DNA from: Parerythrobacter jejuensis | Lineage (GTDB): Bacteria; Pseudomonadota; Alphaproteobacteria; Sphingomonadales; Sphingomonadaceae | Length of the DNA stretch: 64,000 bases | Assembly: GCF_039536765.1 (NCBI RefSeq) | Contig: NZ_BAAAZF010000001.1 | Coordinates: forward strand, 186,001-250,000 | Direction of reading: 5' to 3' | Position numbers and translations under genes: made by a program | Shown here: piece by piece, positions 57,828 to 64,000 of the stretch | Numbering within the stretch: position 1 is the stretch's first letter | How the letters are laid out: every line of letters begins with the position of its first letter | Notes under the pieces: generated by a model | The model's database searches: none | What the model was told of the DNA's origin: nothing | Seen by the model: the letters and a program-made list of their open reading frames with translations, nothing else

Positions 57828-59024
57828 ATGGGGAGCGCTATGACCATGGAAACCAAGGCTGGCGATCCCGGTGCATTCGCCCAATTCGACCTTTCGCGTG
57901 TCGACAGCCCTGCCTTCGTCGTCGATGCGGCGAAATTGCGGGCGAACCTGCAGATCCTCGCTGAAATTCGCGATGTGGCGGATATCAAGATGCTGGCTGC
58001 GCTCAAGGCGTTCTCGATGCATGCGGTGGCCCCGATGATCGGGGAGTATCTCGATGGCACCTGCACCAGCGGCTTGTGGGAGGCGCGGCTGGCGAGCGAG
58101 TTTTATGATGGCGAGATCAGCACCTATTGCGCGGCGTACAAGCCCGAGGACCTGGAAGAAGTCTGTCGCCTGTCAGACCATGTCATATTCAATTCGCCGC
58201 AGCAGAAAGAGCGGGCGCGGTTGATCCTTGATCAAGCGCGACTGACCGGCGGCGACTTCGATATTGGATTGCGGATCAATCCGCAGGTCCCGACGGGGGA
58301 AGTGCCGCGTTATGATCCTTCCTCCCCCGGCTCGCGGCTCGGCTTTCCGATCGACCAGCTTGAGCCGGAGATGATGGAAGGCGTGGACGGGATCCACTTC
58401 CATAATCTGTGCGAGCAGGGCTTCGAGCCGTTGGCGCAGACATGGGACAAGGTGTTCGATGCGATCGAGCCATGGTTCGGACAGCTCAAATGGATCAATA
58501 TGGGCGGCGGGCACCACATTACGCGAGCCGACTATGCGCGCGAGGAACTGGTGGAATTCCTGCGTGACGCGAAAGAGGATACCGGCGCCGAGATTTACCT
58601 CGAGCCGGGCGAGGCTGTGGCGCTGGATGCAGGAATACTGGTCGGGACCATTCTCGACAGCGGTTTCAACGAAGTGCCTTTCGCGATCACCGATGTCTCT
58701 GCCACGTGCCATATGCCCGATGTTATCGAAGCTCCGTATCGGCCGGCGATGCTGGGCGAAGAAGCGGGTGGGGAGGGCGCTCCCGTGCGCCTTGGTGGCC
58801 CGTCATGCCTCGCAGGGGACGTGATTGGCGATTACAGCCTGCCGGTGCCCAACCAGGCCGGGCAGCGTGTCGCCTTCCTCGACCAGGCGCATTATTCGAT
58901 GGTGAAGACCAACACATTCAACGGTGTGCCGCTGCCGAGCATCTATCTGTGGGATAGCGAAACCGACCAGCTCGAGCTGGTCAAAGAGTTCGGCTACGAG
59001 GATTTCCGCAACCGGTTGAGCTAG
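57828..59024 (+). CDS. nspC: Carboxynorspermidine/carboxyspermidine decarboxylase
   Basis: PLP fold-type III decarboxylase, 398 residues. It makes norspermidine or spermidine from the carboxy precursor. The PLP Lys is K60 in MLAALKAFSMHAV, and the glycine-rich phosphate site lies around WINMGGGHHIT. The pair with the dehydrogenase at 55095 defines the alternative spermidine route. The start ATG 57828 follows aaagga. Its TAG shares CTAG with the opposite DUF3137 gene. Confidence 0.9.
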   Translation: MGSAMTMETKAGDPGAFAQFDLSRVDSPAFVVDAAKLRANLQILAEIRDVADIKMLAALKAFSMHAVAPMIGEYLDGTCTSGLWEARLASEFYDGEISTYCAAYKPEDLEEVCRLSDHVIFNSPQQKERARLILDQARLTGGDFDIGLRINPQVPTGEVPRYDPSSPGSRLGFPIDQLEPEMMEGVDGIHFHNLCEQGFEPLAQTWDKVFDAIEPWFGQLKWINMGGGHHITRADYAREELVEFLRDAKEDTGAEIYLEPGEAVALDAGILVGTILDSGFNEVPFAITDVSATCHMPDVIEAPYRPAMLGEEAGGEGAPVRLGGPSCLAGDVIGDYSLPVPNQAGQRVAFLDQAHYSMVKTNTFNGVPLPSIYLWDSETDQLELVKEFGYEDFRNRLS

Positions 59025-60037: not shown

Positions 60038-60589
60038 ATGGAATGGGTGATCGTGATTGGCGTGGTGGTTGTCCTCGCGATTTTCGTGATCGGTATCTAC
60101 AATCGCCTGGTCGGCTTGCGGCAGAATGTCCGGCAAGGGGTGGCGGATATCGACGCCCAGTTGCGCCAACGCCATGATCTGATCCCCAATCTGGTCGAGA
60201 CGGTGAAGGGCTATGCGTCGCACGAGACGGACACTCTGGAACAGGTGACCGAAGCGCGCAATCGCGCGGCTTCGGGGCAAGTCAGCTCTTCGGATGAGGC
60301 GCAGCTGAAGATCGCGCTCGATCGCCTGTTGGCGCTGAGCGAGAATTATCCGGACCTGAAGGCCAATGTGAACTTCCAGGAGCTGCAACGCGAACTGGCA
60401 AATACCGAAGACAAACTGGCTGCCGCCCGACGTGCGCTGAATGCCGCAGTGTCGCGGTTCAATACCGCGCGGGAGAGTTTCCCGGCGATCCTGTTTGCCG
60501 GTGCTCTCGGTTTTCAGGAAGCCGATTTTCATCGCCTCGATGACAGCGAGAAGGGCACGGTGGACCAGGTTCCCCAAGTGTCATTCTGA
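60038..60589 (+). CDS. lemA: LemA-family protein
   Basis: A 183-residue protein: one N-terminal transmembrane helix (about residues 3-21), then a helical-bundle LemA domain. The typical signature is YNRLVGLRQNVRQGVADIDAQLRQRHDLIPNLVE, with NFQELQRELANTEDKLAAARR. Function in bacteria is unresolved, and the divergent DUF3137 neighbour is the usual partner. ATG 60038 has aaggggag upstream; readings starting at 59906 run across the divergent gap and into the DUF3137 gene. Confidence 0.9.
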   Translation: MEWVIVIGVVVVLAIFVIGIYNRLVGLRQNVRQGVADIDAQLRQRHDLIPNLVETVKGYASHETDTLEQVTEARNRAASGQVSSSDEAQLKIALDRLLALSENYPDLKANVNFQELQRELANTEDKLAAARRALNAAVSRFNTARESFPAILFAGALGFQEADFHRLDDSEKGTVDQVPQVSF

Positions 60590-60621
60590 CCGGGCAAGAA
60601 CGCGCGCATTGGATGCATTTT

Positions 60622-60655
60622 TTGATTTGCGATTCCGCGCCACTCGCTTATAGGC
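60622..60655 (+). promoter_or_regulatory. Putative promoter of the ornithine decarboxylase leader
   Basis: TTGATT at 60622-60627 and a TATAGG/TTATAG box around 60648-60655 with a spacer slightly longer than ideal. It stands immediately upstream of the RNA leader. Confidence 0.35.
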
Positions 60656-60664
60656 GCGCGCTCT

Positions 60665-60742
60665 GCCCCAAGGGACAATAACCGCAAGGCAGCCCTACAT
60701 CGACATACGGTCAGAACCTAAACCTTCTGGGGGTCCCTTGAG
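60665..60742 (+). ncRNA. speF-type cis-regulatory RNA leader of ornithine decarboxylase
   Basis: The leader contains ACAATAACCGCAAGGC and CCTACATCGACATACGG blocks that I recognise as the alphaproteobacterial speF motif. Arms CAAGGGA (60669-60675) and TCCCTTG (60734-60740) pair exactly and bring the leader's end, with gggg near the ribosome site, next to the TTG start at 60743. The motif is known upstream of ornithine decarboxylase genes; I know of no proven ligand for it. Presumably translation is switched by polyamine-related signals. Confidence 0.78.
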
Positions 60743-61945
60743 TTGCACATTTATCCAGATGCCAAGGCTGTAGTTCGCGCCCTAGCGCCGGACGAACCCA
60801 TTATCCTCAACCGCCCGCATGCCGCCGCACGCGCCGCCCGATTCTTCGTGCAGAAGTTTCCGGGCAAGTCGCTGTATGCCGTAAAGGCAAACCCGTCGCC
60901 CGACCTGTTGCAGGTCCTGTGGGAGAACGGGGTGACGCATTATGATGTGGCCTCGATTGCAGAGGTGCGTCTGGTGCGTGAAACGCTGCCCGGTGCGCAT
61001 TTGTGCTTCATGCATCCGGTCAAAACGCCGCGTGCGATTGCAGAGGCCTATCACAAGCATGGCTGCCGCACGTTCAGCCTGGACACGTTGGAAGAGCTTG
61101 AAAAAATCGTGGCTGCTTGTGCAGACGATGCCGGCAATCCGGCGACCGATCTGAAATTGTGTGTGCGCTTGCGGGTTTCTTCGGAATATTCCGAATTGTC
61201 GCTGGCCAGCAAGTTCGGCTGTGACCTGACTGAAGCCCCGGCACTGTTGCAAGCGACCCGCCAGCATTGCGATTGGCTGGGTGTGTGTTTCCATGTCGGC
61301 AGCCAGGCGATGACGCCGTTTGCATTCGTGCAGGCAATCGAGCGTGCCCGCGCAGCCATTGCCGATGCGAGCGTGGTGATCGATATGGTGGATGTCGGCG
61401 GCGGCTTCCCCAGTATTTATCCCGAACTCGATCCTCCTCCGCTGGAAGACTATTTCGAGATCATCCACAAGCATTTCGAAGCGCTGCCGATCGCCTATAA
61501 TGCTGAATTGTGGTGCGAGCCGGGACGCGCTCTGAGCGCAGAATACTCCTCCCTTGTCGTCAGGGTTGAGAAACGCCGCGGCGAAGAACTCTATATCAAT
61601 GATGGCGCTTACGGGGCCCTCTACGATGCAGCGCATGTAGGATGGAAATTCCCGGTCAAGGCGCTGGAAGATGATCTGATCAAGCCCGAGATAGGCTTTT
61701 CCTTCTATGGGCCGACTTGCGATGATGCGGATTTCATGGAGGGGCCATTCCTGCTGCCGGAAGACATTCAGGCGGGGGACTTCATCGAGGTCGGGATGCT
61801 GGGTGCCTATGGCGCGGCCATGAAAACCGGGTTCAACGGGTTCGGCAATGCGGAACAGTATGTGGTGGAGGACGAACCGATGGCCAGTCTCTATCGTGGC
61901 GATCGAGTGCTGCCTGCCAGCGACAATGTTGTGAGCCTACGCTAG
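60743..61945 (+). CDS. Ornithine decarboxylase (type III PLP)
   Basis: A 400-residue eukaryotic-like PLP decarboxylase. K48 in YAVKANPSP forms the Schiff base. The glycine loop is VDVGGGFPS, and the catalytic Cys is C326 in GPTCDDAD. It forms putrescine from ornithine; arginine or lysine preference cannot be excluded. It starts with TTG 60743 directly behind the RNA stem. No nearby ATG fits. Its product feeds the carboxyspermidine dehydrogenase/decarboxylase pair encoded upstream. Confidence 0.93.
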   Translation: MHIYPDAKAVVRALAPDEPIILNRPHAAARAARFFVQKFPGKSLYAVKANPSPDLLQVLWENGVTHYDVASIAEVRLVRETLPGAHLCFMHPVKTPRAIAEAYHKHGCRTFSLDTLEELEKIVAACADDAGNPATDLKLCVRLRVSSEYSELSLASKFGCDLTEAPALLQATRQHCDWLGVCFHVGSQAMTPFAFVQAIERARAAIADASVVIDMVDVGGGFPSIYPELDPPPLEDYFEIIHKHFEALPIAYNAELWCEPGRALSAEYSSLVVRVEKRRGEELYINDGAYGALYDAAHVGWKFPVKALEDDLIKPEIGFSFYGPTCDDADFMEGPFLLPEDIQAGDFIEVGMLGAYGAAMKTGFNGFGNAEQYVVEDEPMASLYRGDRVLPASDNVVSLR

Positions 61946-63106: not shown

Positions 63107-63790
63107 CTAGATTCCAGCTTCGACCGCAATCCTCACAAGATCAGCGCTTGTCCGCAGGCCAAGCTTTTCCATCACCAAGCCGCGGTGCATCTTGACCGTC
63201 TTTTCAGACAGGCCAAGCTCCGCCGCGACTTGCTTGTTGCGCAGGCCTGATGCGACCAATGTCGTCACCTGGAGTTGACGCGGAGACAGCGTTTTGAGCA
63301 TCTCGGCCGCTCTTTCCCGGCGGGCCATACCCATATTGGGTTGGTCATCGTCAACCTCGACCTGGCTGCCGAGGAAATAGAGCAATTCGTCTGTGTCATC
63401 GTAAATCGGCGCGACCAAGACGGCGTTGCGGAATGGCGATCCGTCTTTCTTGTAATTGAGGATCTCAACCAAGACCGGCTTATGTTCGCGCACGCCTTCA
63501 CGGATCTTTTCGGTCAGCCATGGTTCGGTTCCCGATCCGGACAGGAACCGGCAATTGCGACCGACGCATTCGCTTTCTTCATAGCCGGTCAGATCGGCAA
63601 ATGCCTTGTTGATGGCGACCAGCGGATTGTCGGGCAGTCGGGGATCGGACACGACCGAGGCGATCGGGCTCGCTTCAATCAGGTCAAGCACCCATTGATC
63701 GGGCTGCGGAATCGCAGCGGGATCAGTGACTTCCGTGTCATCCGATTGGCTCGGCGGAGGGCTGTTTGAGTCCGGTCCCATACACTGCAT
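63107..63790 (-). CDS. Blue-light LOV-HTH transcription factor, EL222 type
   Basis: A 227-residue protein. The LOV photosensor (about residues 30-155) has GRNCRFLSG with flavin-adduct cysteine C80 (C75 in EL222) and [14 protein letters not shown]-alpha linker follows, then a LuxR-type helix-turn-helix ([36 protein letters not shown]). I recognise it as almost collinear with EL222 of Erythrobacter litoralis HTCC2594, which dimerises and binds DNA under blue light. ATG 63790 gives the known length; the upstream in-frame ATG lies inside the preceding gene. A likely target site lies 25 bases after its stop. Confidence 0.93.
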
Positions 63791-63836
63791 ATCGCTCGTG
63801 TCCGGTGCAATTGCAATGGCTTGGGGCAGTTCTTCC

Positions 63837-64000
63837 CTATCCGTTGCCGACCTGGACTTCGAGGAATTGCGGCTTGGATGTGGATGCGCCATGCATTTGT
63901 TGCAGCGGATAGCTGCCATTGGGAAGAGACGTCAGTGGCATGCCTGCGGCCGCAAGCGCATAGGGCGATACCCGGTGGCGGGTCACGAGCCCACCCGCAC
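63837..64000 (-). CDS. C-terminal end of an unrecognised protein (cut by window edge)
   Basis: An open frame enters from the window end and stops at TAG 63839-63837, giving about 53 residues ([14 protein letters not shown]... FLEVQVGNG). Third-position GC is high, as in the neighbouring genes, and the other frames look less coding, which is why I report it. The gene lies 46 bases upstream of the EL222-like start on the same strand and could share its transcript. I do not recognise the family. Confidence 0.4.

Follow-up and report, generated by a model that had tools for sequence, protein, structure and literature searches.

The window, a stretch of 64,000 nucleotides from Parerythrobacter jejuensis, carries on its forward strand a gene of 400 amino acids with a TTG start (60743..61945). 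On sequence similarity, its product is predicted to be a pyridoxal-dependent ornithine decarboxylase-like enzyme (Pfam PF02784 and PF00278), whose best matches among solved structures are lysine/ornithine decarboxylases (5gjm, E 1.2e-40). The gene is preceded by a structured leader, which is compared below with the published odc1 motif. The arrangement suggests that the odc1 leader region is part of a polyamine gene cluster. A carboxynorspermidine decarboxylase-like gene is located 1.7 kb upstream on the same strand (57828-59024), with a TIGR01047 score of 375.6 bits, below the cut-off of 409; in several relatives, the apparent C-terminal end of such a gene was seen by eye just ahead of the odc1 leader. 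About 1.2 kb beyond the decarboxylase gene, the reverse strand encodes a protein with PAS plus LuxR-type domains (63107-63919) that is closely related to EL222, a blue-light DNA-binding protein (PDB 8a5r, E 4.7e-119).

The leader element and its distribution

The odc1-type leader RNA element spans positions 60659..60742 (+). It was described with R1, an RNA model of 75 positions that ends at the gene's start codon and was trained on the 55 rows of alignment A1. These rows represent 55 of 65 non-redundant leaders shorter than 106 nt; the other ten, which had inserts or unusual forms, were excluded. R1 matches the window at 60659-60745 with 67.6 bits (E 3.9e-17), the window's own copy being one of the 55 training rows. 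The conserved blocks pointed out in the earlier note are real, as 20 columns are invariant across 55 leaders that differ by roughly 10% or more. The common form among relatives is CTGCC - GGGAC - ACCGCAAGGCAG - GG(A/G)GGTCCC - TTG, and the distance from AAGGC to the first start codon ranges from 28 to 113 nt. In the block ACCGCAAGG (60681..60689, +), each of the nine columns is either invariant in A1 or conserved to 90% or more, and its final two bases (60688-60689) form part of the pseudoknot helix described below. A Shine-Dalgarno-like GGGGG can be read directly at 60729..60733 (+); it is conserved in A1 and is replaced by GGAGG in many relatives. A possible -10 element, TTATAG, lies at 60648..60653 (+), and similar TATA-like boxes were seen by eye directly 5' of the element in relatives; a consensus scan found no promoter. 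The interval 60622-60745, which the earlier note had assigned to an RNA switch, does contain the RNA element (about 60659-60742) and also takes in what is probably promoter sequence.

At E≤0.01, R1 matches 212 of 296 genomes of the order, with at most two matches per genome, and all 212 belong to one family, that of the window. In the source genome one strong match was found, together with two others at E 0.6-0.7. When 289 genomes of the class were searched, four of the window's family matched at E≤1.8e-15, and four outside it reached only E 0.008-0.009, which were taken as chance. Among the genomes listed, from which 64 non-matching ones are missing, a single member of the window's family (G438) has no R1 match; no orthologue of the decarboxylase was found in it, only a relative 29% identical to the enzyme. 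Orthologues were collected from three sources: 59 related genomes (57 with any match, paralogues included), 142 genomes of the class, of which 40 gave a match at E≤1e-40, and a set of 80 named loci, most of them from Erythrobacteraceae. A simple pattern detected the AAGGC-anchored leader block in 109 of 115 loci above 55% identity; five are variants, and the L155 leader was left out. By eye, two leaders outside the family (L031, 520-574; L048, 2647-2699 on the reverse strand) resemble divergent relatives, with start codons 4 or 5 bases apart and a possible pseudoknot. Their R1 scores are weak (E 0.0028 and 0.012, respectively, over 10 kb), and they were excluded from the members.

Pairing at the ribosome-binding site and the pseudoknot helix

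The segment CAAGGGAC (60669..60676, +) is the perfect complement of GTCCCTTG (60733..60740, +), which includes the first start codon, so that an 8-bp stem can be formed whose 3' end lies two bases ahead of TTG 60743. By this complementarity, the ribosome-binding site (RBS) of the ornithine decarboxylase gene sits inside the helix. The seven-base stem proposed earlier (AAGGGAC 60670-60676 with GTCCCTT 60733-60739, ending three bases short of the TTG) is thereby confirmed and extended by one C-G pair, and the accompanying suggestion of control over ribosome access gains support in so far as the structured leader is able to hide the RBS. A perfect stem of at least 8 bp occurred anywhere in 49 of 2000 dinucleotide shuffles of 60659-60742, and one whose 3' arm ended in the last six bases in 14 of 2000. 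The folding energy of the single leader sequence is ordinary relative to shuffles (z -0.38), and the real evidence for structure is therefore comparative.

The second helix pairs CTGCC (60663..60667, +) with GGCAG (60688..60692, +). It crosses the first, in which the loop segment CAAGGGAC pairs with GTCCCTTG at the RBS. In the window it comprises five pairs, the sixth, outer pair of the family being absent. Among the 55 sequences, 97.9% of the cells of this helix are paired, a percentage that may be raised by the exclusion of the ten odd leaders from A1, which also lowers the variation seen. Three of its six pairs show changes on both sides, a number attained in 12 of 500 shuffles; for the whole structure, six cells with both-side changes were counted against a shuffled mean of 1.0, and six were attained in none of the 500. 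Compensatory changes include GCAGCC/GGCTGC in L153 and GTCGCC/GGCGAC in L041. No covariation was found in the RBS stem, where none of the seven pairs counted in the 55 sequences changes on both sides and one pair is broken in 19 of them. In the Sphingomonas-like clade alone, visual inspection also suggested that a coding segment GGGG(Y)UAGC may pair with the 5' arm GCUGCCCC.

The overlapping short open reading frame

Two start codons, TTG 60738-60740 and TTG 60743-60745, are offset by five bases with two bases between them. The first opens a short ORF of 11 codons (60738..60773, +; LSCTFIQMPRL as coded) that overlaps the decarboxylase gene and ends at TAG 60771-60773. Its conservation was followed through 258 loci with a decarboxylase match, of which 40 below 53% identity, outside the family, were uncounted. 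From the remaining 218 (at least 58% identity), L155 and L017, the latter with start codons 4 rather than 5 bases apart and a 10-codon ORF, were excluded, and the merging of 23 duplicates over the first 100 bases left 193 distinct loci. A stop within 16 codons is present at 190 of these, the length being 11 codons at 183, 16 at six and 9 at one. The early stop is absent at three loci (22, 48 and 48 codons); L108, L148 and L234, which have kept the first start codon and lost the early stop, constitute a natural test of the role of the short ORF. The first codon is TTG at 186 loci, GTG at five and ATG at two. Since R1 reaches no further than the gene's start codon and supplied many of these loci, there is some selection for the start codons in this set, and none for the stop.

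The stop varies in identity among loci (TAG, TAA or TGA) and usually falls in a valine or leucine codon of the decarboxylase gene; in the rest of these genes, GTA makes up 5.1% of valine codons, and CTA and TTA together 2.9% of leucine codons. A tree of 158 complete genes built with FastTree needs at least 16 changes to account for the four states TAG, TAA, TGA and none, and three for stop versus no stop. In several lineages, about five codons have been inserted in the short-ORF region. Six of them retain the old stop, which gives 16 codons; L093 and L121 possess both the old stop and one that comes earlier; in L084 there is an earlier stop and the old stop codon is now GTC; and L234 is left with no early stop. 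With the exception of L234, these insert lineages point to the stop itself. At L232 the short ORF is kept and the 5' helix has apparently been lost, as judged by eye, which together with the loss of the early stop at L108, L148 and L234 indicates that the RNA fold and the short ORF are not strictly coupled.

On comparing synonymous identity along the genes, it was found that the two clades differ. In 107 genes more than 74% identical to that of the window, peptide positions 5-11 have values of 0.36-0.77 against a gene mean of 0.56, with 0.96 at the stop column; in 50 genes below 70% identity, the same positions reach 0.67-0.98 against a mean of 0.54 elsewhere. Position 4 of the peptide scores high in either clade (0.93 and 1.0). 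Out-of-frame stops also occur elsewhere, at column 233 in 0.92 and column 413 in 0.68 of the sequences (0.97 at both columns when only the clade above 74% identity is taken), and these arise largely from methionine codons; that at column 27 (0.97; GTA or CTA) is not explained in this way. Judged by these patterns, it is the stop of the short ORF, more than its peptide, that part of the family seems to preserve. This is a new observation, and it disagrees with Brewer et al. on constant length and conserved residues. Two further candidates were considered. An ornithine-sensing arrest peptide was rejected, the peptide being too variable in one clade, and for a programmed frameshift leading out of the short ORF to the enzyme frame, no conserved slippery site was seen by eye.

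Interpretation and comparison with known systems

The odc1 (uORF-25-1) motif was described by Brewer et al. (2021, PMC8632094), in the part of the article drawn on here, as an orphan candidate with 272 representatives and no known ligand. A pseudoknot, an RBS within a stem, two UUG codons two bases apart and an upstream ORF (uORF) of 11 amino acids were given as its features. When the copy of Sphingomonas echinoides was fused to lacZ in E. coli, both start codons were active, the uORF start being about 3-fold stronger than the main start, and expression from both was higher in minimal than in rich medium (PMC8632094). In mutants M4 to M6, strictly conserved positions immediately ahead of the pseudoknot bases were altered; main-frame expression was lost in all three, while that of the uORF was barely changed in M4 and M5 (PMC8632094); the mutated positions are probably equivalent to the block ACCGCAAGG of the window.

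The basis for an interpretation of the window's leader is the conservation of sequence and fold, some covariation in the pseudoknot helix and the retention of the short ORF's start and stop. We consider it likely that this is an odc1-motif RNA in which a pseudoknot masks the first UUG along with the Shine-Dalgarno sequence, and in which fold and short ORF together set the output of the enzyme. The 5' end of the leader would form a short helix with the hairpin loop, and the same loop region would pair with the RBS, giving a pseudoknot that conceals both the Shine-Dalgarno sequence and the first UUG. Once it opened, ribosomes would choose between UUG 60738, which would lead them into an 11-codon dead end, and UUG 60743, which would lead to ornithine decarboxylase, so that the RNA fold and the short ORF would jointly determine how many ribosomes enter the enzyme frame. 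The trigger is presumably a polyamine-linked metabolite or cell state. We infer that the window copy uses both starts, as the S. echinoides copy does, and that a ligand or signal exists. A more specific version, which is put forward tentatively and falls short of probable, is a ribosome-partitioning switch in which the decoy start and the nearby stop are kept, the peptide drifts and a polyamine could tip the choice of UUG.

The same features could be read in other ways. UUG is a weak start codon, and its occurrence at both positions in nearly all loci, together with the unremarkable folding energy, would suit a passive brake, in which structure and weak starts simply hold down the output of the enzyme and neither ligand nor signal is involved. 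This is unlikely in our view, since the strong conservation of the loop bases ACCGCAA of ACCGCAAGG suggests more than a brake, and since three odc1 mutants abolish main-frame expression, two of them sparing the uORF (PMC8632094). It was suggested by Brewer et al., for whom the length of the uORF peptide is invariant and most of its positions are conserved, that the peptide is functional (PMC8632094); the short ORF would then act through a nascent or free 11-residue peptide that senses or signals the polyamine state. In addition to the conserved, constant-length peptide reported there, the high synonymous identity of positions 5-11 in the 50 more distant genes, the conservation of position 4 in both clades and a ..ARWG ending that is common among relatives agree with this proposal. 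We nevertheless regard it as quite unlikely, because in the 107 closer genes these positions behave like the rest of the gene, yet the stop column stands at 0.96, and because ORFs of 9, 11 and 16 codons occur with widely differing peptides.

The earlier note had called the leader speF-type, a label to be given up if the covariance score proved too low. The speF leader family (Rfam RF00518) shares with the window both the class of the downstream enzyme and the bacterial class. When the search was run, RF00518 remained below its 37-bit threshold, with no match in the window at the gathering score or in 60500-60900 at E≤10 (Rfam 15). It had no match genome-wide either, the same search being negative also in 14 control genomes. 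With stricter filters, a wider search of 289 alphaproteobacterial genomes located RF00518 in 11 (9 above the cut-off) and in none of the four of the window's family within that sample. The decarboxylases at the 11 loci are distant, being 29-33% identical to the window's enzyme, and at all four of these loci that were scanned with Rfam the ar45 sRNA is directly upstream. Given these results, there is hardly any chance that the leader belongs to RF00518. In two RF00518 leaders (L161 and L165), GGTCTC near the 5' end could, by eye, pair with GGGAGACC at the RBS.

If the pseudoknot reading of the leader is correct, the choice of start codon on a knotted RNA would set polyamine synthesis in this family, which includes relatives of Erythrobacter and Sphingomonas. 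The observation on the stop codon turns the vague notion of a "functional peptide" into a sharp test of stop versus peptide. The odc1 motif, described in 2021, is still an orphan as far as the literature searched shows; no work on it later than that of Brewer et al. was found there, most subscription journals lying outside that literature. The earlier note's statement that the ligand is not established, made for speF, is equally apt for the odc1 element, for which the consulted part of the article reports none (PMC8632094).

No family of Rfam 15 matches the window's copy of the element or the copies of three relatives. The spermidine riboswitch, a SAM-I variant, likewise represents RNA control of polyamine synthesis genes, and differs, according to its description (PMC10853860), in being Gram-positive, in acting by transcription termination and in having the SAM-I fold; SAM-I is absent from the three chance-level Rfam matches listed at E≤10 in 60500-60900. 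In the case of speF, the available text of Corbino et al. (2005, PMC1273637) states that the RNA bound none of six pathway compounds, namely ornithine, lysine, diaminopimelate, putrescine, cadaverine and spermidine. The window element resembles RF00518 in being the leader of a COG0019-type decarboxylase in Alphaproteobacteria, with no ligand found for speF in that account, whereas speF has a different sequence and structure, is longer and precedes a distant enzyme lineage. Compared by its published description, the window leader is filed as a member of the odc1 motif and as a candidate start-choice switch. It shares with odc1 the occurrence in Alphaproteobacteria, an RBS in a stem with the upstream leader (60669-60676 / 60733-60740, by complementarity), a pseudoknot between 5' end and hairpin loop (60663-60667 / 60688-60692, with covariation in relatives), two UUG codons two bases apart (60738-60740 and 60743-60745), an 11-residue uORF overlapping the main gene (60738-60773) and, by similarity, a predicted ornithine decarboxylase gene downstream. 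Unlike the odc1 motif as described in the portion of the article consulted, the relatives have ORFs of 9, 11 or 16 codons with differing stop codons, some of these ORFs begin with GTG or ATG, and conservation at peptide positions 5-11 does not rise above background in the clade above 74% identity.
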